A stretch of DNA of 17,437 bases from Hyphomonadaceae bacterium (GTDB lineage: Bacteria > Pseudomonadota > Alphaproteobacteria > Caulobacterales > Aquidulcibacteraceae): contig DPWD01000169.1 in NCBI GenBank assembly GCA_003526465.1, positions 3,055 to 20,491 of the forward strand. Direction: 5' to 3'. Both the position numbers and the translations under genes were made by a program. Under the pieces are notes generated by a model, which saw nothing but the letters and a program-made list of their open reading frames with translations, was not told the DNA's origin and searched no databases. Positions within the stretch are counted from its first letter, which is position 1. The number at the start of each line of letters is the position of its first letter. Positions 4,466 to 15,988 of this stretch are shown here, in pieces.

Positions 4466-4837
4466 TTATTTCGGTCGTTTCGCGCCGTAGAGCGAACGGC
4501 GTTGCTTGCGGTCCTTGACGCCCTGGGTGTCCAGCACGCCGCGCAGGATGTGGTAGCGAACACCCGGCAAATCCTTCACCCGGCCGCCGCGAATGAGCAC
4601 CACCGAGTGCTCCTGCAAATTGTGGCCCTCGCCGGGGATGTAGCAGACCGCCTCGATGCCGGTGGTCAGGCGCACCTTGGCGACCTTCCGGAGCGCCGAG
4701 TTCGGCTTCTTCGGGGTGGTGGTGTAGACCCGGGTGCAGACCCCGCGCCGCTGCGGACACGCCTTCAGCGCCGGCGCCTTGTTGCGCACCGGTTTCGGTG
4801 ACCGGGGCTTCCGGATCAGCTGGTTAATCGTCGGCAT
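4466..4837 (-). CDS. rpsL: 30S ribosomal protein S12 (uS12)
   Basis: S12 lies at the decoding centre and takes part in tRNA selection. From ATG4837 the product has 123 residues, the standard short form beginning [10 protein letters not shown]; the frame is open further upstream but that part is not S12. The segment [14 protein letters not shown] carries wild-type lysines, and [14 protein letters not shown] contains the conserved Asp that RimO methylthiolates in other bacteria. Nothing suggests a streptomycin-resistance allele at these two sites. It is the first gene of rpsL-rpsG-fusA. Confidence 0.98.
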
Positions 4838-5080: not shown

Positions 5081-5677
5081 CTAGGCCGAAGCCGCTCCTA
5101 TCCACTCGGGCTCCGCTTGATCCAGGTCATAGTACTCAAAGATGAGGTGAATTCTATCCGTGGACCCTGCGTTGACAACGGAATGAACGCCCATGTTGTT
5201 GACCTCAACGGCTTCGCCCTCGGGGAATGAGTATCCGACGCAGTCGACATAAAAAATGGTTTCCTGGCTGGTCTGCAATGGAACATGGATTTTATGCGGC
5301 CACTTGGCTGCGGGATTGGCGTCTCGGTGCGGGTGAATTACCCCCCCAGGCGCCAGCCGCGCCAACATAATCCTGGGAAACGCGCCGCGCGCATAATTGT
5401 ACGGCGCCACGGCTTGATTCAGGACGGGCTCCAACAGTCCGCGCCACTCCGGCCACAGCCGGTGATCCGCCGAAACACGCCAATCGTTGAAGCTCGTTAC
5501 AAAGCGAAATACGATATGAGTTGCCTGGTCAAGTGCGTCGAACCGGTTAGGCTTGACGCTGTTCTCAGACTGCCAAACTTCTTCCGGCAGCGCCAACACC
5601 GCTTCGCGCAGTGTGACGATGTCCACCACGCCGAGGCGGCGCGCTGTTTTGGTCTTGCGTGGGTTCGCGTAAATCAC
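5081..5677 (-). CDS. Aspartyl/asparaginyl beta-hydroxylase-type 2OG-Fe(II) oxygenase (second, short copy)
   Basis: The product has 198 residues and a jelly-roll-type core. The iron-binding facial triad is visible: GGVIHPHRD gives H117-x-D119, MGVHSVV gives H165, and R175 in TDRIHLIFEYY would bind the 2-oxoglutarate carboxylate. This arrangement is that of the PF05118-like Asp/Asn hydroxylases, which hydroxylate the beta-carbon of Asp/Asn in peptides; some bacterial relatives act on free or carrier-bound amino acids. The start is GTG5677 within a GTGA overlap with the upstream sulfotransferase stop, with AAGGA behind it, so translation is probably coupled. It is the last gene of the island, 243 bases before rpsL. 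The substrate is unknown. Confidence 0.8.
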   Translation of the reverse strand: MIYANPRKTKTARRLGVVDIVTLREAVLALPEEVWQSENSVKPNRFDALDQATHIVFRFVTSFNDWRVSADHRLWPEWRGLLEPVLNQAVAPYNYARGAFPRIMLARLAPGGVIHPHRDANPAAKWPHKIHVPLQTSQETIFYVDCVGYSFPEGEAVEVNNMGVHSVVNAGSTDRIHLIFEYYDLDQAEPEWIGAASA

Positions 5678-6312
5678 CCTGCTTGTCCTTCAAAATCATA
5701 CCCGAACATCTCGAGATCCCCACGATAGATCTCCTCCACGGCATCTCGCATTGGATTGTCGTAGTAGAGTCGATAATCGCCCCGCTGGGAAGAATTTACT
5801 CGCGCCAGCGGATCGGACTGCAGGCCTAGCCTCTCGCAGTACCCGTCGTAGGCGACTTGCATGTTCTCAACTCGGCCAACGGCGTCGGCCAACAATGCGC
5901 CGCGCTCGTCGGTAATAAACGTGTGTTGGGGGACGAAAAGAAGGTGGTCGAGCGGTCGGCTCTCAAAGAGGAACCGCCTCATGACCGCCTGTGGATCCCT
6001 TGCGAACCCGTTGTCCGCTCGGGTCATAAAGGCGCAATAGGAAATAAACCGGTCGAACGGGTTCCTGACGAATGCAAACTTGAAATAGCTCGAGAAATTG
6101 GGCTCCCCCAGGAAAGGACGAACTTGGATAAGGCTGATGTGTCCGTGCTTGAGTCTAGCCAGCGGCTCGAACGGAAACGTCTTTTTTACGAACAAGCCAA
6201 CCTGCTCGAGATCCCCTGCGCCCAGCTGGCGGCGCAGCGCTCCGCGGATTGCGTGCGTACCCGTCTTAGGGATGGCGACGAATACAAATCGGTGGCGGTG
6301 CGAAATTATCAA
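5674..6312 (-). CDS. Sulfotransferase, Sulfotransfer_2-like, short (C)
   Basis: The product has 212 residues. The PAPS 5'-phosphosulfate loop is seen as VAIPKTGTHAIRGAL (K16-TGT), and the 3'-phosphate motif as FAFVRNPFDRFISYCAF (R83, S91). Both are as in the family of HNK-1/chondroitin and heparan 2-O sulfotransferases and their bacterial relatives, which move sulfate from PAPS to hydroxyls. The likely start is TTG6312, with GAGGA 8 bases upstream; no ATG or GTG lies near the correct N-terminus. It begins 27 bases after sulfotransferase B in the same frame, and overlaps the downstream hydroxylase by 4 bases. Third-position GC seems lower by eye than in the str genes, which may point to transfer. 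No TPR region, unlike A and B. Confidence 0.82.
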   Translation of the reverse strand: MIISHRHRFVFVAIPKTGTHAIRGALRRQLGAGDLEQVGLFVKKTFPFEPLARLKHGHISLIQVRPFLGEPNFSSYFKFAFVRNPFDRFISYCAFMTRADNGFARDPQAVMRRFLFESRPLDHLLFVPQHTFITDERGALLADAVGRVENMQVAYDGYCERLGLQSDPLARVNSSQRGDYRLYYDNPMRDAVEEIYRGDLEMFGYDFEGQAG

Positions 6313-6339
6313 GCCGGGCGTCCTCGAGCTTTCAACGCG

Positions 6340-7809
6340 CTAAAGCCCAACCGCCCGCAGCGCCTCGCGCAGCCGCTTTGTAGCCAAGGGGAATTTTGCT
6401 TCAGCGCCCACGCGTGCAGCAGAAATCGGCGCGCGAACCTGAGCGAAACTCGCGGTAGAAACCGCTCGTTCTTGCAGGTGGGGCTGGCGCACTTGCTCTT
6501 CGTCTCGCAGACCCAAGCTCGAAAGGAGGCGCCCAATTTGGGTGTCGGGATCCTTGACCAGATCTTCGTATTGTACCGTGATGATGGAGCCTTGGTCTCG
6601 CTCCGCCCAAGCGCTCATCAAACGTCTGTAGGAAGCTATGTAACGGGCGAGCAAGGAGGGCTCGCATGCCCAACCTGATTCCAGATTGAAGTTCGTGCGC
6701 CAGCACGACCAAGCTATATCCAAGGGATCGCGCCGAACCCAAACAATGCGGGCGCGAGGCAGCGCCCTCCTGATCAATCCAAGGCGCCAATGATTGTTCA
6801 GCTGTTTGTCCGTCACACGCGGCGAAGCTGCGAACCGCGCGGCGGCAAGCTCAAGATAGCGCCGCCCCATTTCCTCCCAAGGGTTGGATTCTCCCCGCGC
6901 CCGCGCCCGTTCCAGCAGCCGCAGCGCCGTCGCGCGCGATATATCGTTGGCGCCGCGTGAGGCGATCCAAAAAAAATTGTGCTCTCCTCCGCCAGCCACC
7001 TCGGAATGGCTAGCCAGGATATGTTCCGCTAACGTCGTGCCAGAGCGTGGCGAGCCCATCACGAAGATAACCCGATCACTCTCCTGGGAGTTCGCAGAGC
7101 CGCCGTATGAGGCGTCTTGTTCCAAGAGTTCTAACGCGCCCCGCTCAGAGCGCTCGATCGAGTCTCCATCGAACCGAGCCAGCAACGACTTCGCAGCCGC
7201 AGCTTCGTCCAACGCCCGCGCCGCGGCCGCGTCATTGTTGGTGTCGACGTATGCCTTTCCCAACCCATAAGAGACTGCCGCGTATTGGTTTGGCAATGAC
7301 TGACCTATTCTCGCCCGCAACGCCTCCATCGCCGCGATATCTGGATCGTCCGCTGAGAATCGCTTGCCTTGCGCGAGTAACGACCACGCGAAGGCGTCGT
7401 CTGGACCTCCGACCATGAGCGCACGCAGGTGCGTGTCAGCCTCTTCGAGACGGTTGGCGAAGGACAACAGCCGCGCGAGGAGGAACCGCTCCTGTGGGAG
7501 CAAATGGCCGGACGACGCCCACGGCAGGAGCGCTTTCGCAGCTTCATCTGCTCTTCCCGCAGCCTCCAGGGCATTCGCGAGAATGACTGCGGTCATGTGG
7601 CTCGGCGGCGTCTCCGCGTTGAGCCGAAACGCGGACTCCGCAGCCGCGTCCTGCAGTTGCGCGCGCGCCGCAATCATAGTCACCTCGGCCCAATAGGGGC
7701 CGACCGACTGACCAGCGTTCAGCAAATCGTTGATGCGCCGAAGGAGCTCAAATGTTTCGCCCGCTTCCGCAGCGGTGCGGATCGCCGCCAACGCCGCGTG
7801 CGTATTCAC
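6340..7809 (-). CDS. TPR-sulfotransferase B (Sulfotransfer_3-like)
   Basis: From GTG7809 the product has 489 residues. Residues 1 to about 210 are helical TPR-type repeats (for example LANALEAAGRADEAAKALLPWA near 77-98). The sulfotransferase domain follows: MGSPRSGTTL (251-260, PAPS 5' loop), VWVRRDPLDIAWSCWR (356-371, 3'-phosphate site) and VQYEDLV (412-418). This architecture, with N-terminal TPR, is that of bacterial protein or small-molecule sulfotransferases; the acceptor is unknown. GTG7809 is preferred because paralogue A starts at the equivalent place and GGGGGA lies just before it, although spacing is short; an in-frame TTG at 7863 would add 18 residues that derive from the decayed small gene upstream. 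It is a clear paralogue of A, sharing SFAQ(V/I)R and PHLxERAV near the C-terminus. Confidence 0.88.
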   Translation of the reverse strand: MNTHAALAAIRTAAEAGETFELLRRINDLLNAGQSVGPYWAEVTMIAARAQLQDAAAESAFRLNAETPPSHMTAVILANALEAAGRADEAAKALLPWASSGHLLPQERFLLARLLSFANRLEEADTHLRALMVGGPDDAFAWSLLAQGKRFSADDPDIAAMEALRARIGQSLPNQYAAVSYGLGKAYVDTNNDAAAARALDEAAAAKSLLARFDGDSIERSERGALELLEQDASYGGSANSQESDRVIFVMGSPRSGTTLAEHILASHSEVAGGGEHNFFWIASRGANDISRATALRLLERARARGESNPWEEMGRRYLELAAARFAASPRVTDKQLNNHWRLGLIRRALPRARIVWVRRDPLDIAWSCWRTNFNLESGWACEPSLLARYIASYRRLMSAWAERDQGSIITVQYEDLVKDPDTQIGRLLSSLGLRDEEQVRQPHLQERAVSTASFAQVRAPISAARVGAEAKFPLATKRLREALRAVGL

Positions 7810-7866
7810 ACGTCCCCCATCTGAAACCTGATTATTCCTAATTGTTGTGTCCAGAATTCTCAAGCA

Positions 7867-7917
7867 TCAGCGGCCTGACGTCTGTAGAAATAGGGCTATT
7901 GCGACAAAGAAATCCAT
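7867..7917 (-). pseudogene. Decayed second copy of the 5' end of the small secreted protein gene
   Basis: On the minus strand, ATG7917 (with TAGGAGGT before it) encodes MDFFVAIALFLQTSG followed by Arg and TGA: 16 residues in all. The intact gene next door begins MDFIVALALFLQTSG, 13 of 15 identical, and the 42 DNA bases 7876-7917 match 8235-8276 at 33 positions. Homology to the middle of the gene is absent. A few bases at about 7838-7850 encode GHNN in another frame, as at the C-terminus of the intact protein, so an internal deletion is possible. It could also be a translated 16-residue leader, since its ribosome binding site and start are intact. Confidence 0.7.
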
Positions 7918-7973
7918 CCGTACCTCCTATCGCGCGTCCGCCAAGCGCCATTTCGGCGCCTAGATCGCTGAAC

Positions 7974-8276
7974 TCAATCGCCAGCCGAGTTATTGTGACC
8001 GGCGCCCCCGAGCATCTGTTCCATGGTTTCGTGGGCGCGGTCGGCCGTTCGATCTGCATGGCTACGCGAATAGCATTCGGTGACGGCAACTCTTGTTCCG
8101 GCGCGCCGCCGGTCCCTGCAGATCAAAACCCTGTCGATGGGAGGTTGGTCCGCTGGCGCTGCGGTTTGCGCCGATGACGACGCATCTGATACCGCTTCAG
8201 GCTGGCTCTGCGGTTGGGGCTCGGCAACTTGGCCAGACGTCTGCAGAAACAGAGCTAGCGCAACTATGAAATCCAT
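7974..8276 (-). CDS. Small putative secreted protein, 100 residues
   Basis: The start ATG8276 has GGAGGGAG 6-7 bases upstream. The N-terminus MDFIVALALFLQTSG is a short hydrophobic export-type segment (no basic residue, so cleavage is uncertain). A low-complexity Pro/Gln/Ser/Ala linker runs over residues 18-46, then a compact C-terminal part with ICRDRRRAGTRVAVTEC: two cysteines (C53, C68) flanking a GTR turn, then charged helical sequence to Asp100. This C-x-GTR-x-C layout resembles small uncharacterised envelope proteins of Caulobacterales and sphingomonads; that resemblance is from memory. It lies 65 bases after sulfotransferase A and before sulfotransferase B. It contains one tyrosine (Y69) next to C68, with E67 before, and several Asp/Asn, so it is a possible modification substrate. 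Function unknown. Confidence 0.75.
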   Translation of the reverse strand: MDFIVALALFLQTSGQVAEPQPQSQPEAVSDASSSAQTAAPADQPPIDRVLICRDRRRAGTRVAVTECYSRSHADRTADRAHETMEQMLGGAGHNNSAGD

Positions 8277-8341
8277 CTCTCGACTCCCTCCGGGGGGACC
8301 GATTGCGCCTATCGACAACGCACCGGCACGACCAAGCCTCT

Positions 8342-9817
8342 TTACACTTCGAGGCCAATCGCGTCCAGAGCTTCGCGCAAGGAGCGCACCGACTGCGGGT
8401 ACGCTTCGAACCCAGCAACAACCCCACGCTCCTGAAGCGGTTCCCGGATCTGGGCAAAGCTCAACGTAGCGACCGCACGCTCGGACAGGTGCGGCGCCCG
8501 TGTTGCTGGATGGTCCCTCAACCCACACTCGCCCAAGACACGCGGAATCTCCGCATCCGGGAAACGCACCAGGTCTTCGTAATTCACGCAGGTGATAGCG
8601 CCGGGGTAGCGGCTGATCCAGGCCTCCATCGCGCGCCGATAAGTGGCGATGTAGAGCGCTATGCCCTCTGGGCTGCCGCCCCAGGCAGATTCCCCGTCGA
8701 ACTGAGACCTCCAACACGACCAAGCCACAGCGAGCGGATTCCGTTTCACATAAACAATTTTTGCATCGGGCAACGCTTGGCGGATCGCCCGCACGCGGTA
8801 GACATTCGACAGTAACTTGTCCGTGAAGCGCGCGCCTCGAGCGAACTCGTCCGCCAGCCCGAGATAACGGCGCCCGATCGGCGCCCAAGGGTCGGAGGCG
8901 GGAGCGCGCGTGCGCTCGCCGTCCAAATATTTCGCAATGGCGCTGGCGCCGCAGTCGCCGAGCGCTTTGGACGCGAGCCAAAACCAACGCCTCTCGCCGC
9001 CAGCACCCACTTCTGGATGGCGCGCAAAGATTTGCTCGACCAACGTTGTGCCAGACCGATTGGGGCCAAGTATGAAGGTCGCGCGCCCGCTGCCCTCGGT
9101 CGTCGCAGCGCCGTCAACGGCGCCTGACTCACACCACCTGACGATATCCGTCAGCGCCGCCCTGTGTCCTTCCGGATTAAACGGAAACAGCGCGCGAAAC
9201 GCCTCGCTGCGAGCACAAAGATGGAGGTCCGCGGCTGCGTCGTCGCCAATATCGACGAAGGCTTTCGCAAGCGCGGCCGCTATCGCGACTCGCCCAGCCG
9301 GACGCGACAGCGGCCAGCGATCGAACACGCCGCGCATAGCATCGATGTCGGGGTCCCCCGCTGCAAAGCGTTTGGTCTGCGCAACGCGCTCCCACAGGGT
9401 TGGGCTGTTGGGATTGTCGGCGAGCAGCGCGCGCGCACGCTCCTGCGCCTCGCCGATGCGCCCCGCGAACATCAGCATGCGCGTAAATTTGAAACGCGCG
9501 TTTGGCGTCAAATTGCTTTCGTGAGGCGCCAGCAACGCCACTGCCTCATCGGCGGCGCCAGCGTCGGTCATCGCCTCGGCGACGAAATGCGCTGTCTCCG
9601 GCGTTGGCCCGACATCTCGCAGGTACCTTCTTCCCATCTCCATCGCGGCGAAATCGTCGCCAATTTCGCGCGCAAGGAGCACGCCCCGTCGCCACCCCTC
9701 CCCGGCGCGTTCGCTGCCGTCCAGAGCTTGGCGCAGGGCCTCGGCCGCGGCCCAACAATCTCCGCGCGAGCGCGCGGCATACGCCGTGTCTATTAGAGAA
9801 TGCACGCTGGCGGCCAT
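8342..9817 (-). CDS. TPR-sulfotransferase A (Sulfotransfer_3-like)
   Basis: From ATG9817 the product has 491 residues. Residues 1 to about 210 form TPR-type helical repeats (AEAMTDAGAADEAVALLAPH, ARMLMFAGRIGEAQERAR-like segments near 80-130). The PAPS-binding domain follows: ILGPNRSGTTLVEQIF (249-264), where PN replaces the usual MP before RSGTT; KRNPLAVAWSCWR (358-370); and NYEDLV (412-417). The frame is open upstream to 10015, but that part overlaps the receptor gene and is not protein-like. It begins 55 bases after the receptor's intrinsic terminator, so it depends on read-through or its own promoter; I saw no clear -35/-10. It is a paralogue of B along the full length. The acceptor is unknown; Xanthomonas RaxST-like tyrosine sulfation is one precedent for bacterial protein sulfation. 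Confidence 0.9.
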   Translation of the reverse strand: MAASVHSLIDTAYAARSRGDCWAAAEALRQALDGSERAGEGWRRGVLLAREIGDDFAAMEMGRRYLRDVGPTPETAHFVAEAMTDAGAADEAVALLAPHESNLTPNARFKFTRMLMFAGRIGEAQERARALLADNPNSPTLWERVAQTKRFAAGDPDIDAMRGVFDRWPLSRPAGRVAIAAALAKAFVDIGDDAAADLHLCARSEAFRALFPFNPEGHRAALTDIVRWCESGAVDGAATTEGSGRATFILGPNRSGTTLVEQIFARHPEVGAGGERRWFWLASKALGDCGASAIAKYLDGERTRAPASDPWAPIGRRYLGLADEFARGARFTDKLLSNVYRVRAIRQALPDAKIVYVKRNPLAVAWSCWRSQFDGESAWGGSPEGIALYIATYRRAMEAWISRYPGAITCVNYEDLVRFPDAEIPRVLGECGLRDHPATRAPHLSERAVATLSFAQIREPLQERGVVAGFEAYPQSVRSLREALDAIGLEV

Positions 9818-9872
9818 CAGAGTCTGCCTGTCGAACGCAAAATTCTGCCTATAGGGCCAAGACTCCGGCAAG

Positions 9873-9901
9873 AAAAAACGGCGGGCCCTGAGGCCCGCCG
9901 T
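9873..9901 (-). terminator. Rho-independent terminator of the TonB-dependent receptor gene
   Basis: On the minus strand a 10-bp perfect stem (ACGGCGGGCC / GGCCCGCCGT, loop of 4) is followed by TTTTTTCTT. It starts 26 bases after the receptor stop codon and separates it from sulfotransferase A. Confidence 0.93.
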
Positions 9902-9926
9902 CCATAAGTCAGGGAATTGTTCAGCG

Positions 9927-12900
9927 TCAGTAGCGCAGTCGCACCTGGGCAAACACGCGCCGCCCAACCACGTCATAGAGAGATGGGTCGGTGCCAGACT
10001 GCACGTTCGGTGCATAGAGCGCCGGCTCCTGGTCGGCGACGTTGTTGACGCCTATCCGCAGTGCGGCGTTGTCCGTCATCTGCCACTCGCCGGACACGTC
10101 GGTGTACCAAATAGCCTCGGCGCCGGTGAACTGGGCCGCTTCTCCCGGGAACAACACATTCGCGCGGTTGATCATATCGCCGATGTAGCGGTTCCTCATG
10201 TTGAATGAGAAGTCGCCGATGCTCCAGGTGGTGTTCAGCGTCGCTTTCCATTCAGGGAAGGACTGACCCAGACCTTCGCCGAAGAACCCAACGGTGCCAG
10301 CGAAGTCAAGTTCAGGCAATCCGCTTGGGAACTGCACGGAGATGTCCGAGTCCTTCTGTATCCACTCCATCAGGTGGTTCACCAGCACGTTGAAATGGAG
10401 GTCGCCAGCTGTGCCGAGATCCATGCCGTAATCGACCTGAATATCGATACCAGAGGTCTCGATGCTGCCGCCGTTGACGCCCGGATAGGTGCCGTTCGGC
10501 CCCGTGCCGTAGATGACAAGGATGTCGCCACCAGCACGATAGATCGCCGAGCAGCTCGGGTCGGTGATGCTGTAGGTCGGGTTCGTGCCGTAATAATTGT
10601 AGCAATTGGCGATGACCTGGTTCACCCCGGGCGCTAGGATCGGATCGCTGATCGCGATGTTGTAATAGTCGATCGAAGCACGCAGATCGACTCCATCCCA
10701 GGGCGAGGTGAACACGGCACCGATTGTGTAGGTGTCGGCGGCTTCAGGGTCGAGGTTGGTGTTGCCCGCAGTAGAGATGCTGACCTGAGTTCCGGGCGTT
10801 TGCACGAACGTGCCAACCCCCCCCAGCCCGGTCGCAGTGCACAGCGCTGCCATCGCCACTGCGTCCACGCCAGTTAATTTGGCGGTGCCAGCGGAGCAGG
10901 GATCGAAGATTTGCGGCGCCGAACCGCCGCCGGCGAACAATTCGCCGAAGTTCGGCGCACGCACGGCGTGCTGGAATGCGGCGCGGAACAGCCAACTATC
11001 GACCGGCGCCCACACGACATCGGCCTTGTAGGTCCAATCCGTTGAGTTGCCTCCCGTGGCTCCCGCCACCGTATCGGTGAACTCGCTGCTGGAGCGGCGG
11101 CCGCCGAGCGTGAAATCCAAGCCCTCGGCGACCGGGAACGCAAACTCAAAGAATACATCTTCGAAGCTGTTTTCGCCGCCGTTGGCCGGGGTCGAATTGA
11201 AGCCCGAAATCGGCCCGCCCGCGGAACCCGGGTTGAAGTTAAATTCGAAGCCGCGATACTCCGCGCCAAACACCGCTTGCACTGGGCCCGCCGGCATCTG
11301 GAACAAATCTCCCGACACGAACGCGTTGAAGATGTCGGAGGTGAAATCTGTCGTTTGCGTGGCGGAAACCGAAAGGAACGCGACGCACGCCGGCGACAAT
11401 GGGTGGCGCCCGAACACGTTGAACCCGGTCGGACCGCAAACACTTACGCCGCCATCCGCAGCTTCCAGGAGCTGTTGCACCTTTTGGGTGTCAATATTGC
11501 CGGTCTGGTTGGAGTCGATTTCGGTGATGCCGTGAGACAGCGACACATCGAAATCCCAACCCGACTCGCCCACTGGTCCGCGAAACCCAAACATGTATTG
11601 GACCACGGTGTTTTCAAATTGCTGCTCGCGCAGGCCGGCGCTGAGGGTGCGCTGGCGAAGCGTGAACGGCTCAGTGGCGCCAGTGCCGACCAAGCTCGGG
11701 TTGTCACCAGAGCGCGAAGCAAGCAGTGTCAGCATATCCGCCGGGATGAACGGATTGGTCACCGGGATGATCATCAAGTTGGCGATAGTTTTCCCGGGCG
11801 TGATCAACGCCGACGTAAACTGGCTGGCCAGAGTGGTGGTCCCCGGCGCCCGCCCTTGCACGGTCGGGAATGGCGTGGGCGCTAGCGCTTGCGTCGAACT
11901 GTACTCCGACCATCCGGCACGGCCGTACACCTGAATTTCATTTTCGAATTCATACTCGAACCGCGACATGAACGAAGTGCGTTCGAGCGGCAGCGTGAGA
12001 ATATTCACGGAGTCGAAGTTGTACGAGTAGACATCGGGGAACAACGTGGAGTTGACCGCCAAGTCGATTGGGTACAGGAAATTCACGACATTGAGCGGGC
12101 TGTTGAAAACACCCCGATAAAACAGCGTGCCGTTGAGGTTGAATCCGGTAACGCCCGAGGCAAGCGTTTGGGCGCCCGCCGGGCTGCCATACGTCGCGAA
12201 AATCGCATCGTACGCCGCCTCGGTCGGCGCATTGGAGCCAGCGAAGAAGAAGTTGCCTTCTGGCAGGAACGATGTCGTCGCCGTCGCGTTCGCGGAGAAG
12301 TCGCGCTGGCTCTTGATCATGATTTCGCGCACCGAGCGCTCAAGACCCATCGAGAAATTGCCGCGTCCGCCATCGAAATTGGCGCCGACCAAGCCGCTCA
12401 GATTGTATTCCTGGGCATCCCAGAATTCCGTGCTGTTCGAGTAGGTGCCGCGGAATTCCATGCCGTCGAAATCGTCGCGCAGGCGGAAGTTCACCACGCC
12501 CGCGACCGCGTCCGCGCCGTAAACCGCGCCCGCGCCGCCGGTGATGACTTCGACATTGCCGATCATCACTTGCGGAATGGTGTTGACGTCGACGGTTTGA
12601 TTGGAGGCCGACATCATCGCGCGACTGCCGTCAATCAGTACGAGGTTGCGGTTAGCGCCGAGGCCGCGCAAGTCGACGTTAGATTGGCCGCCATTGCCGG
12701 GGTTGTTCGAGGTCGTCGTTCCCGCTGGGTTGACCGCGGGGAGTGTGTTCAGGAACGTGTCTATCGTGATGTCAGCATTGCCGACGAGCTGCTCTTGATT
12801 GAGCGTGGTGATCGGGCTTGTGGATACATAATCCTGCCGCGCGATCCGCGAGCCGGTAACCACGATCACATCTTCTTCCGCATCGGCGTCCTGCGCCATC

Positions 12901-12998
12901 GCGGGCGTGCCGGTCATGGCCGCCGCGGCCGCCGCAAGCACGGATGCCCCAGCCAGAAGCGACTTGCGTTGTCCGTTTTGAGTTTTCTTACTGAACAT
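9927..12998 (-). CDS. TonB-dependent outer-membrane receptor
   Basis: The product has 1023 residues. A Sec signal peptide (KK near the N-terminus, Ala-rich core, AMA before Q36) is followed by the TonB box region EEDVIVVTGSRI (41-52), the plug domain (about 55-175, with VDLRGLGANRNLVLIDG and VEVITGGAGAVYGADAVAGVVNF), and a large 22-strand-type barrel ending ...VFAQVRLRY with C-terminal Tyr. Three cysteine pairs (about 521/537, 702/719 and 798/815) probably form disulfides in surface loops. It imports or senses an unknown ligand using TonB/ExbBD energy. AGGGGG about 6 bases before ATG12998 is a good ribosome binding site. It has its own terminator and a 427-base upstream region. The flanking oxygenases and sulfotransferases suggest a modified peptide or polysaccharide ligand, or that the receptor itself is modified. 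Confidence 0.96.
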   Translation of the reverse strand: MFSKKTQNGQRKSLLAGASVLAAAAAAMTGTPAMAQDADAEEDVIVVTGSRIARQDYVSTSPITTLNQEQLVGNADITIDTFLNTLPAVNPAGTTTSNNPGNGGQSNVDLRGLGANRNLVLIDGSRAMMSASNQTVDVNTIPQVMIGNVEVITGGAGAVYGADAVAGVVNFRLRDDFDGMEFRGTYSNSTEFWDAQEYNLSGLVGANFDGGRGNFSMGLERSVREIMIKSQRDFSANATATTSFLPEGNFFFAGSNAPTEAAYDAIFATYGSPAGAQTLASGVTGFNLNGTLFYRGVFNSPLNVVNFLYPIDLAVNSTLFPDVYSYNFDSVNILTLPLERTSFMSRFEYEFENEIQVYGRAGWSEYSSTQALAPTPFPTVQGRAPGTTTLASQFTSALITPGKTIANLMIIPVTNPFIPADMLTLLASRSGDNPSLVGTGATEPFTLRQRTLSAGLREQQFENTVVQYMFGFRGPVGESGWDFDVSLSHGITEIDSNQTGNIDTQKVQQLLEAADGGVSVCGPTGFNVFGRHPLSPACVAFLSVSATQTTDFTSDIFNAFVSGDLFQMPAGPVQAVFGAEYRGFEFNFNPGSAGGPISGFNSTPANGGENSFEDVFFEFAFPVAEGLDFTLGGRRSSSEFTDTVAGATGGNSTDWTYKADVVWAPVDSWLFRAAFQHAVRAPNFGELFAGGGSAPQIFDPCSAGTAKLTGVDAVAMAALCTATGLGGVGTFVQTPGTQVSISTAGNTNLDPEAADTYTIGAVFTSPWDGVDLRASIDYYNIAISDPILAPGVNQVIANCYNYYGTNPTYSITDPSCSAIYRAGGDILVIYGTGPNGTYPGVNGGSIETSGIDIQVDYGMDLGTAGDLHFNVLVNHLMEWIQKDSDISVQFPSGLPELDFAGTVGFFGEGLGQSFPEWKATLNTTWSIGDFSFNMRNRYIGDMINRANVLFPGEAAQFTGAEAIWYTDVSGEWQMTDNAALRIGVNNVADQEPALYAPNVQSGTDPSLYDVVGRRVFAQVRLRY

Positions 12999-13062
12999 TC
13001 GAACCCCCTAAGAGCGCCGGGCCAATCGCCGAAACCGCTCGACGACCTTCTTCATTGTTGCT

Positions 13063-13080
13063 CGGCGAGTTATTTCGCCG
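13063..13080. promoter_or_regulatory. Inverted repeat in the receptor leader
   Basis: CGGCGA-gttatt-TCGCCG has 6-bp arms, 65 bases before the receptor ATG. It could be an operator or leader hairpin. Six-base arms are common by chance in GC-rich DNA. Confidence 0.25.
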
Positions 13081-13245
13081 AACCGCTTTGCGGAAGGGTG
13101 TCACCCGCCAAGGACGACACGAGCCGAGGCCCGGCATCGACTCCCGCCATGCTGCGGCTACGCTTACGACACATTTTAACCAAGGCAAGCGCCGGATGCG
13201 GCGTTCGTCGCATTTCTGCAGGCCGCTGTGTCGAATCCGCACGGA

Positions 13246-13261
13246 ACAAATCGGGATTTGT
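13246..13261. promoter_or_regulatory. Operator-like dyad upstream of the receptor
   Basis: ACAAATC-gg-GATTTGT has perfect 7-bp arms with a 2-base centre. It is AT-rich in GC-rich surroundings and lies about 250 bases before the receptor start, which suits a transcription factor site. The regulator is unknown. Confidence 0.35.
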
Positions 13262-13425
13262 CGCCTCGCGTAACGACATCGTGATCAATTGTGGCGTTTT
13301 CCCCAGGCTGGGGAGACCCCCGCTCCGGCGACCGGATTTCCCACATCGAGCACCAAAGACTATTTTGAAAACTTGCGCGGCGCGAGAAAATCAACCCAGG
13401 GGCGCAAGGGGGCTACATGCCGGGG

Positions 13426-14367
13426 CTACTTGCGGGACAGCGCTGTGCTCAGGACCATCGCATTGAGGGTCGGGATAAACCCGTAGCCATTCTTCAATTT
13501 GAGCGATGCCGCCTGGGATTCGTTTAGGCGCCGCGCCAGAATGTCCAACGCTTGCAGATAGCGCGGCAACCCGTCCACATCGGCACCGAAGGCCGACCAG
13601 TTCATGCGCCACGACCGTTTGAAGTCCTCGAGCGCGCGCGAAACCAAGGTGTACGTCGATCCCTGAGATTCGTCGGTCTCCGACAACAGAAACTCGATGT
13701 GCGCATTCACCTCCCAGGGCGTCATCACCATCGGAGAGCTTACACGTTCAAAATCAATATCGTGGACACTTGCCTGAAACGGCGCAACCGGCGTCGCCGC
13801 CCATCCCGCCGGACTATCCAAGTTGCGGCCACGCGCCATCAGCGCCGAAAACTTGTCGCCGCCCACGGTATCCACCACCAAATGTATGCGCGACTCAACC
13901 GCATCGTTCAGCACGCGATGCCAGGCCCAAGTGTCGAAGATCCAGCACTCCCCAGGCCCCATATTGATTTCTTGGTCGCCGCAGATGAAGCGCACGCTCG
14001 GCTGGGTCACGATGGGAACATGCACGCGCATGCGGTCGCGCCAATAATAGTGAACGTCGATGTGCGGCTTTACCTCGGCGTTGCCAGATAGCCGCATCAA
14101 CCGCGACCGCCCCACGACCACACCGAGACTAGCCAACACGTCTATGAGGTAGGGGCAGCCGAGAAGGTAGGGGGTTGGCCGCATGGGGCCCATGAAGGCT
14201 TCGCTGCGGGGCTCTCCACCCGCCGCGACCAGCGGCAAGTAGTCGTTTCCAGCGAAACCTTGGGGGTGCGACATCCATGCGGAAGCCTCGATGCTGTTAA
14301 CTTCCCGCGCCAACAGCTCGGCGTCGAACTGAAGCGGAATCTGCAGAAATCTCGTCGCCAACTTCAT
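13426..14367 (-). CDS. Aspartyl/asparaginyl beta-hydroxylase-type 2OG-Fe(II) oxygenase with C-terminal extension
   Basis: The product has 313 residues. The core (about 60-170) has the full triad: VKPHIDVHYYW gives H102-x-D104, TWAWHRVLND gives H150, and R160 in SRIHLVVDTVGG fits the 2-oxoglutarate anchor. MRVHVPIVT and GECWIFD are typical jelly-roll strands of PF05118. Residues 170-313 form an extra, mostly helical part with no motif I recognise; it may bind the substrate or partner. The start ATG14367 has only a weak ribosome binding site. It follows the 2OG-Fe(II) oxygenase by 143 bases and precedes the receptor by 427 bases. It is larger than, and only distantly like, the 198-residue hydroxylase at 5081. 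Its substrate is unknown. Confidence 0.85.
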   Translation of the reverse strand: MKLATRFLQIPLQFDAELLAREVNSIEASAWMSHPQGFAGNDYLPLVAAGGEPRSEAFMGPMRPTPYLLGCPYLIDVLASLGVVVGRSRLMRLSGNAEVKPHIDVHYYWRDRMRVHVPIVTQPSVRFICGDQEINMGPGECWIFDTWAWHRVLNDAVESRIHLVVDTVGGDKFSALMARGRNLDSPAGWAATPVAPFQASVHDIDFERVSSPMVMTPWEVNAHIEFLLSETDESQGSTYTLVSRALEDFKRSWRMNWSAFGADVDGLPRYLQALDILARRLNESQAASLKLKNGYGFIPTLNAMVLSTALSRK

Positions 14368-14403
14368 TGCAATGGGCTCGGCGGCCTGCGTTCAGGTGAG
14401 CAC

Positions 14404-14431
14404 GGGCCGTGGCCCAAATCCTATAGATTTG
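14404..14431. repeat. Two adjacent small inverted repeats between oxygenase genes
   Basis: GGGCC-gt-GGCCC (14404-14415) abuts CAAATC-ctata-GATTTG (14415-14431). They lie 37-64 bases before the hydroxylase ATG at 14367. No T-run follows, so they are not a standard terminator; an operator or leader structure is possible. Confidence 0.3.
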
Positions 14432-14510
14432 CTTGTTTGTTGTAAAATGCCCGCGCGCCGCGTCACAGCATCGCCTTGGGCCGAGCCCCCCGCAGGGGCG
14501 CCTACTCATA

Positions 14511-15236
14511 TCAGGGGCCCCGCGACCTCATCCAGCCTGTGATCGACAGACGATCCGCGGGGGCAAACGGCGCCACCACGCTAACGGCGTGCAACTGCGG
14601 CACTCTAAGTATGTTTATCGCGTTCCAACGAGGGGTGTACGCTTCGGCGACATGCCCATCTCCGTCGAGAAACTGCAGGAGGCCGCCCCAATCCGCGCGC
14701 CAATGCGGGGTGAGGTTAATAACGTAAGCATACAGTCGATGTTTGCCTTCGATGTTATCATCGTGAACAGCCAGGAAGTGCCCGCGCCGGTAACGGGTGG
14801 CCTGGGCGTCCAGGTACGCAATCCGCGTGTCACCGGTGAGCTGTCGGAGAGCCGCCAAGGCAGGCTCACTGTTGAGTTCGGTGAACAGACTCGCAAGAGG
14901 TCCGCTGGTCAATTGGCCGGACTCAACCAGATCGCTTACGCGGAATGAATCAAACAAGTACTGAAAATTGTGCGCCGCGCGGGCATGCACCGCCTCCAGG
15001 AGAGCGCCCGCCTGGGCGGGATCCAATGCCGCCACTTCAGTAGCGGAAATGTCATAGGATTGTGTTTCGGTCTTGAGCGCTACCCGCCAATCTACGCACT
15101 GCATCTCCTCAAACAAGATGCGAGCGCCTTGGTCTGTGAGAAAACCAGGCATGTGGATGCGCCCATTGCGCGCCACGATCTTGTGTGCGGCGGCTAAGAG
15201 AGCAGGTTTCAGAAAGTCGCTTGAAATTGCGTTCAT
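14511..15236 (-). CDS. 2OG-Fe(II) oxygenase (prolyl-hydroxylase/Ofd1-like fold)
   Basis: From ATG15236 the product has 241 residues. The sequence begins with a helical lead-in (VARNGRIHMPGFLT at 21-34), then a double-stranded beta-helix with FLAVHDDN giving H158-x-D160, YVINLTPHWRADWGGLLQF, PQLHAV giving H216, and ADRLSITGW with R229 to hold 2-oxoglutarate. This is the layout of PF13640/PF13661-type oxygenases, which hydroxylate prolyl or other peptide side chains. The frame runs upstream to 15356 but the added part is not family-like; the ribosome binding site before ATG15236 is weak, so the start is provisional. It lies 122 bases after the YkgJ-type gene. Together with the hydroxylase at 13426 it makes an oxygenase pair upstream of the receptor. 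Confidence 0.85.
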   Translation of the reverse strand: MNAISSDFLKPALLAAAHKIVARNGRIHMPGFLTDQGARILFEEMQCVDWRVALKTETQSYDISATEVAALDPAQAGALLEAVHARAAHNFQYLFDSFRVSDLVESGQLTSGPLASLFTELNSEPALAALRQLTGDTRIAYLDAQATRYRRGHFLAVHDDNIEGKHRLYAYVINLTPHWRADWGGLLQFLDGDGHVAEAYTPRWNAINILRVPQLHAVSVVAPFAPADRLSITGWMRSRGP

Positions 15237-15332
15237 GTACAACGGGCGCTGGGAGCGCCAATCCCCTGTGTAAGGCCGCTGCAATGGGACGGCAATTTGC
15301 TCATGGCCGCCGCCAAGCCCAGCCCGTACACC

Positions 15333-15351
15333 CCGCAGCCGAAGGCTGCGG
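15333..15351. repeat. 8-bp hairpin between the YkgJ-type and 2OG oxygenase genes
   Basis: CCGCAGCC-gaa-GGCTGCGG forms a perfect 8-bp stem with a 3-base loop, directly after the stop codon of the gene at 15359. No U-run follows on the minus strand. It is probably a REP-like element or weak attenuator. Confidence 0.55.
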
Positions 15352-15358
15352 CCCAAAA

Positions 15359-15988
15359 CTACCCTGGCGGTCTCGCGGGCTCGACATCTCCGCTTGTTGC
15401 ACCGAGCATCTCGGTTCGGCGAGGATCATCAGGCTCCATTAGCGCCACGTCGTACCGAACGCCATTTTCTGCTTGCGACCGTTTGACAACCACCACCTCG
15501 CTAGTTACGCGCCCGAGCTTGACCTCGCGATCCGGCAATACAGCGATCGCGTCTTCGCCCTGCCAAACAATAAGGTAGCCGTCGCCACGCAGCGCGTTTT
15601 CGGCAATACGTTTGATTTGCTGGTAGTAAGGCGGCGCGCGCCAGGCATCCGCGCGCATCGGATCGACCTGGATGTCCACGCGCCGGCTGCTGGGCTCGTA
15701 GGTCATGACCATACCACATATCGTGGGTCGCCATTCCTCCCCAAGCGCTGCACTCCGCCGATAGTCGCAATAAAACGCCTCACATTCTTTCGGGCGGGTG
15801 TCGTAGGCTTTGCATCCCCGCCCGACGTCGCAATGCTGGCACCACGTAAGCCGCGGTTTCGCAATCGCTGGAACGCGCATAAGCAGGCAGCATAACGTGC
15901 AGCCATCGCAGGATCGGCCTGGCGCCAAATGAGATACTGTATCGGTCAAGTTGGTGTTCCATCGCCTAGTTAGCGCGCACAGCCCCAT
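15359..15988 (-). CDS. YkgJ-type cysteine-cluster protein
   Basis: The product has 209 residues. The N-terminal third holds the cluster: SCDGCTLCC (C27, C30, C33, C34), then WCQHC (C50, C53), C59, C69 and C74 in CEAFYC. This CxxCxxCC...C pattern is that of the PF03692 family, thought to bind Zn or an Fe-S cluster; its role is not established. Residues 90-209 are a beta-rich tail with no known motif. The start ATG15988 has only a weak GGGCG upstream, and a TTG at 15949 is possible. It is the first gene of the oxygenase group, 121 bases after the aldo/keto reductase stop. In this setting it could supply or sense metal, or be a modification enzyme itself; that is inference. Confidence 0.85.
   Translation of the reverse strand: MGLCALTRRWNTNLTDTVSHLAPGRSCDGCTLCCLLMRVPAIAKPRLTWCQHCDVGRGCKAYDTRPKECEAFYCDYRRSAALGEEWRPTICGMVMTYEPSSRRVDIQVDPMRADAWRAPPYYQQIKRIAENALRGDGYLIVWQGEDAIAVLPDREVKLGRVTSEVVVVKRSQAENGVRYDVALMEPDDPRRTEMLGATSGDVEPARPPG

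Follow-up and report, generated by a model that had tools for sequence, protein, structure and literature searches.

The 17,437-nucleotide stretch analysed here, which we call the window (G000:C182:3055-20491, from a Hyphomonadaceae genome that is 57% complete and split into 403 contigs), carries an island of nine open reading frames (ORFs) between positions 5081 and 15988. Reading of the ORFs and a Pfam scan of the nine proteins place all of them on the minus strand. They encode three 2-oxoglutarate (2OG) oxygenases, three 3′-phosphoadenosine 5′-phosphosulfate (PAPS) sulfotransferases (STs), two of which carry tetratricopeptide repeats (TPRs), a TonB-dependent receptor (TBDR) of 1023 amino acids (aa), a Cys-rich protein and one small protein. 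An initial annotation had listed this same set, and ORFs, Pfam matches and motifs confirm every part of it. We tentatively suggest that the island is a cytosolic two-step modification cassette acting on an exported protein, with the TBDR precursor as the simplest candidate.

The HxD...H motif is intact in all three oxygenases (HRD117/H165 in AspH_C, HID102/H150 in AspH_B and HDD159/H217 in P4H_A, the last counted from one codon ahead of its ATG), and in both AspH_B and AspH_C an Arg of the 2OG type follows downstream. The P-loops of the sulfotransferases are likewise intact (IPKTGT, SPRSGT and PNRSGT), and the same genome encodes an adenosine 5′-phosphosulfate (APS) kinase. The nearest relatives of the TBDR are 59-61% identical to it. 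As for its ligand class, 22 NCBIfam models touch the receptor and none reaches its own cut-off. The simplest start of P4H_A is the ATG at 15236; for TPRST_b the start is at 9817 or 9871 and not at 10015. By our own reading of the sequence, the island appears to be flanked by an rpsL-rpsG-fusA block on one side and by an aldo-keto reductase/uvrB end on the other.

Table 1. Coordinates of the island genes in the window and the basis of each assignment.
Feature	Position	Strand	Basis
AspH_C, PF05118 2OG hydroxylase, 198 aa	5081..5677	-	Pfam E 1.1e-10, 42 bits (cut-off 22.6)
ST2, PF03567 sulfotransferase, 212 aa	5674..6312	-	Pfam E 1.1e-12; P-loop present; 4 bp overlap with AspH_C
TPRST_a, TPR superhelix and PF13469 sulfotransferase, 507 aa	6340..7863	-	Pfam E 2.9e-36
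16-codon remnant, second copy of the small protein	7867..7917	-	Full-length relatives found elsewhere
Small ORF, 100 aa, probably exported, CR...GTR...C	7974..8276	-	Sequence layout
TPRST_b, weak TPR and PF13469 sulfotransferase, 491 aa	8342..9817	-	Pfam E 1.6e-27; 41% to TPRST_a
TBDR, 1023 aa	9927..12998	-	PF07715 (Plug) E 5.6e-17 and PF00593 (barrel) E 6.7e-33, both over cut-off
AspH_B, PF05118 hydroxylase, 313 aa	13426..14367	-	Pfam E 8e-16, 58.7 bits (cut-off 22.6)
P4H_A, PF13661 2OG oxygenase, 241 aa, doubtful member	14511..15236	-	Pfam E 1.3e-20, 74.1 bits (cut-off 27)
Cys-rich protein, 209 aa, 11 Cys, doubtful member	15359..15988	-	ORF; no Pfam or NCBIfam match at E 0.1

Fused and paired hydroxylases and sulfotransferases

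AspH_B is the counterpart of the N-terminal half of a family of hydroxylase-sulfotransferase fusion proteins. Both domains are present in 118 of the 120 database matches listed for AspH_B, the fusion has more than 1000 database relatives, and the source names of AspH_B relatives include Hyphomonadaceae, Terricaulis, Caulobacteraceae and Rhodanobacteraceae. The HxD motif is kept in 63/63 rows of the family alignment. We read 13 AspH_B loci (the window, L069-L076, L151, L152, L158 and L159; the G052:C1 match, a 655-aa open frame, was left out), and every one of them holds a sulfotransferase, fused to the hydroxylase at eight and encoded separately at five, within two genes and on the same strand. 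A TBDR lies within eight genes at 8 of these 13 loci, compared with 13 of 173 control genes. The controls come from 20 stretches, of whose 364 genes we used the 173 that are at least five genes from a stretch end; a TBDR is found in 2 of the 20 stretches. Gene calls in these neighbourhoods, together with the TBDR, ST and oxygenase labels, were made by our own scripts with local profiles, and Pfam was run on a subset of the proteins.

Two further details concern the setting of AspH_B. At three of the four AspH_B loci from the genus a uvrB neighbour is Pfam-confirmed, and the window itself ends, by our own reading, in a uvrB-like start. The receptor that comes next in G117 shares 60% identity with the window TBDR across residues 2-171, at which point the contig stops.

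Because the two domains are fused, hydroxylation and sulfation would be expected to follow one another on one substrate. The model of the fusion has a predicted template modelling score of 0.56, so the relative orientation of its two halves was left unused. At one locus a 336-aa protein beside the fusion (L072:10361-11371, plus strand) has zero Pfam matches and a P-loop-like stretch, FHIAHCGSTLLARAL; it may represent a further type of sulfotransferase.

The overlapping genes of ST2 and AspH_C make up a second pair. Strong orthologues of both occur in just two of the 149 other genomes searched in the order, G137 and G042. The AspH_C orthologues (71% identical at G137:C22 and 64% at G042:C1) each adjoin an ST2 orthologue (64% and 60%), and the two genes are adjacent as in the window; the next-best matches in the order are 32-35% identical. 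In G042 the genes for a TBDR, ST2, AspH_C, a TPR-sulfotransferase (TPR-ST) and AspH_B follow one another on one strand, with a receptor that bears only a distant likeness to that of the window. In G137 a TBDR lies upstream of ST2, AspH_C, a TPR-ST, AspH_B, a second PF05118 enzyme and a TPR-ST, and a TPR-PF13759 oxygenase on the opposite strand sits between TPR-ST and AspH_B. These gene orders bring the same enzymes and a receptor together in three genomes from two families. No meaningful sequence relative of ST2, and none of AspH_C, was found in the PDB. The conserved gene pair and the fused relatives together support the suggestion of the initial annotation that a substrate is hydroxylated and then sulfated.

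TPR-sulfotransferases and their receptor neighbours

The best fold match of TPRST_a is to the protein-tyrosine sulfotransferases (TPSTs; 3ap1, 5wrj and 8w5z), which are closer to it than other sulfotransferases are. Residues R273, E294, K353, R378 and S386 are aligned with identical residues of tick TPST, which we take to be catalytic in that enzyme.

In order to study the neighbourhoods of such genes we used 57 stretches (L042-L058 and L160-L199), picked by rank and not at random from the list of matches in the order. One of these, L179, has no called ST and was dropped, leaving 56 TPR-ST loci; it comes from the same genome (G110) as control L216, in which a single gene was called, and the codon model fails there. 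Nine matches were left out of the sample since their loci had been read for other reasons (two in the window, two in G077 and one each in G053, G112, G117:C3, G042 and G036:C25). The sample also omits G035:C90, whose contig is short, two matches of G133 located on different contigs and additional matches from contigs that had been read before.

A TBDR is the direct neighbour at 32 of the 56 loci (31 on the same strand), compared with 4 of 173 control genes (nominal Fisher p 1.2e-19). The 32 receptors fall into 5 clusters at 30% identity and 7 at 40%, the largest holding 24 or 22 of them, so the cases are not independent. The initial annotation had proposed that an absence of these families near related receptors would speak against it; the two kinds of gene do co-occur, both here and at the AspH_B loci. 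By eye, nothing clear emerged as a shared N-terminal motif from 37 ST-adjacent and 23 other TBDRs.

Several further loci combine all three kinds of gene. In a Hyphomonadaceae metagenome-assembled genome (L038) a TBDR and a TPR-ST stand in a row, followed by an AspH-type gene on the opposite strand. G143 and G113 have a P4H-like oxygenase, a TPR-ST, a TPR-PF13759 oxygenase and a TBDR in one row (two of the genes in G143 identified by Pfam), and in G299, from outside the class, the genes for a TBDR, a TPR-ST and AspH_B are consecutive.

Some loci are of interest in their own right. At L162 and L164 the genes for a TBDR and a TPR-ST are followed by one for a BCCT betaine/choline-type transporter (Pfam-confirmed), and genes of similar size occur at other TPR-ST loci. 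Five TPR-ST genes are clustered on one strand at L047 (G133:C17, 6787-16369). At L156 (G046:C30) an AspH-type gene adjoins a PF13469 gene, followed by a tryptophan halogenase and a TBDR, which places enzymes of hydroxylation, sulfation and halogenation at one locus.

Doubtful members and the small protein

Two proteins are doubtful members of the island. P4H_A resembles OGFOD1 (4nhx, E 1.4e-7), and in all five stretches with its nearest relatives from the genus a gene for 568-573 aa lies alongside; in the one that was scanned, Pfam identifies it as a methionyl-tRNA synthetase (MetRS). The idea in the initial annotation that all three oxygenases belong together thus finds no support here. As a core member P4H_A was rejected: among the TBDRs listed, one (E <= 1e-40) lies within 8 kb of 0/47 matches in the order of at least 133 bits. 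For matches of 98-125 bits the figure is at least 14 of 37. Both counts, made by hand with the own match excluded and five TBDR candidates scored per genome, are lower bounds. In favour of membership, P4H_A-like genes in G074 and G010 precede two sulfotransferase ORFs, although the match of those in G074 spans no more than about positions 91-216 of a 216-position profile and they may be pieces. P4H_A may be a hydroxylase with a role in translation whose place in the island is a coincidence. It shares the window with an rpsL-like (uS12) ORF at 4466-4837, which proves nothing about uS12 as a substrate. Elsewhere, three P4H_A-like oxygenase genes stand in tandem (L147, G111:C3, 8308-10482). The Cys-rich protein has no match at E 0.1 in NCBIfam and, like the 100-aa small protein, none in Pfam; it was found in 0/62 other long stretches compared.

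The small protein had been named as a possible modification target, and it now looks a weak candidate. Besides a near-identical self-match it has three homologues in the protein database, and 13 relatives, six of them cassette-bearing, gave no match below E 0.005; on these grounds we rejected it as a substrate resembling those of ribosomally synthesized and post-translationally modified peptides. A weak match, L223 (E 0.009), has the same layout of signal, linker and CR..GSR..C, so we assign the protein to a loose family of small proteins, presumably a common one in these bacteria. The 16-codon remnant lies behind an AGGAGG-like site and begins in the same way as the small protein. Database relative P0127 shares that start at full length, and it and the near-identical P0124 are on contigs of equal size (7247), so they are probably a tandem pair.

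Possible substrates of the proposed cassette

If the island is a modification cassette of the kind proposed, an AspH-type 2OG/Fe(II) hydroxylase would hydroxylate a side chain, and the new hydroxyl would then be esterified with sulfate by a PAPS sulfotransferase. Two pairs would do this, AspH_B with a PF13469 enzyme (separate here, fused in many relatives) and AspH_C with ST2. The TPR superhelices on the TPST-like sulfotransferases would capture a polypeptide, as in O-GlcNAc transferase; these arms and the TPST-like site of the companion enzymes are our reason for favouring a polypeptide substrate. PAPS and 2-oxoglutarate are cytosolic and we saw by eye no signal sequence on the island enzymes, so the substrate would be met in the cytosol, ahead of export. 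The sulfate would end up on a periplasmic or surface part, where it may tune contact with ligand or phage. The TBDR is favoured as the target because it is the only exported protein that recurs beside these enzymes. The scheme builds on the observed families, motifs, fusions, gene pairing, TPRs and TPST-like fold of TPRST_a, TBDR linkage and APS kinase, and from these we infer each link after the fusion: the step order, a common substrate, its protein nature and the receptor as target.

Known systems resemble parts of this scheme. TPST1/2 and tick TPST share a fold and aligned catalytic-type residues with TPRST_a, but the latter has a TPR superhelix in front and presumably works in the bacterial cytosol. 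O-GlcNAc transferase also has a TPR superhelix ahead of its transferase domain, although its catalytic domain and donor are unrelated and the TPR also matches designed repeat proteins, making this an analogy only. AspH (5jqy, 6yyu) and the island hydroxylases have the PF05118 fold in common, and structure titles give human AspH a TPR domain too. Human AspH is without the acidic iron ligand, whereas the island-type AspH_B family keeps its HxD and has relatives fused to a sulfotransferase. RaxST of Xanthomonas is a bacterial sulfotransferase that acts on a secreted peptide, RaxX (PMC6637879). The consulted part of that account describes the system without a hydroxylase, whereas the island has hydroxylases and a TBDR; none of its nine ORFs scanned by Pfam is a RaxAB-like export gene. 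We found no description of such a hydroxylase-sulfotransferase cassette in the open-access literature, searched at abstract level.

A number of results weigh against the proposal. Within five genes, a 2OG oxygenase is found at only 1 of the 56 TPR-ST loci, or at 9/65 once the nine left-out loci are restored (eight of these nine have an oxygenase and three an adjacent TBDR, giving 35/65 for the receptor). Hydroxylases thus join a subset of the TPR-STs, and a general law by which every TPR-ST has a hydroxylase is ruled out. Viewed from the receptors, the link to the enzymes is weak: 11 stretches chosen for TBDR similarity (L077-L086 and L088) hold no sulfotransferase and only two of them an oxygenase, and of three named receptor relatives two, L036 and L037, are without either, the third being L038. 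Five of the 13 AspH_B loci have no TBDR within eight genes. By sequence, the hydroxylase half of the fusion is closest in the PDB to L-proline cis-4-hydroxylase (4p7w/4p7x) and proline 3-hydroxylase (1e5r), which are stand-alone enzymes that act on free proline without a sulfotransferase, and for the sulfotransferase half TPST is narrowly the best fold match, with CurM nearly tied. The doubtful membership of P4H_A and the Cys-rich protein counts on the same side. What stands of the initial interpretation of the island is the two-step reading and the co-occurrence with receptors; a general association of hydroxylases with TPR-STs, or of similar receptors with the enzymes, is not supported.

One rival stays close in view of the weak link on the receptor side, the lack of a TBDR at five AspH_B loci and the likeness of the fusion to proline hydroxylases and CurM. 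In this rival the cassette would belong to a small-molecule pathway, and hydroxyl and sulfate would go onto a free amino acid, a small peptide or a siderophore-like metabolite handled by the TBDR. We regard such tailoring of a ligand as possible, to be set against the TPR arms and TPST-like site. It is improbable, in our view, that ST2 and its partners decorate a surface polysaccharide or a hydroxylated lipid. The PF03567 family of ST2 presumably includes carbohydrate sulfotransferases, and two more sulfotransferase-like PF13469 genes of the same genome (L041, G000:C376) adjoin a gene with a glycosyltransferase-2 domain. AspH_C touches LpxO (NCBIfam NF033391) at just 21.6 bits against a cut-off of 500, and AspH_B does not match it. 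Lastly, the MetRS-sized neighbours of P4H_A relatives, the isolated Cys-rich protein and the closest receptors without such enzymes nearby would fit sulfotransferase, hydroxylase and receptor genes that share an accretion zone and not a pathway, but the fusion and the repeated pairing of AspH_B, AspH_C, ST2 and TPR-ST make this hardly likely.

Taken further, the proposal of a cassette acting on exported proteins leads to a new type of bacterial post-translational modification, 'hydroxysulfation', in which a side chain that lacks a hydroxyl would gain one and immediately be O-sulfated there. A bifunctional AspH-sulfotransferase or a matched pair of enzymes would do this on TBDRs or other exported envelope proteins. 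We consider this extension somewhat unlikely, and we know of no sulfated outer-membrane receptor. Bacterial protein sulfation has few worked examples, RaxX being the one found in the literature searched. If true, the proposal would provide the first function for a fusion family of more than 1000 members and for the receptor-adjacent TPR-sulfotransferases, it would predict a precise mass signature of +95.95 Da on the target, and it would be relevant to the way these bacteria adjust uptake and their contact with phages on the cell surface.

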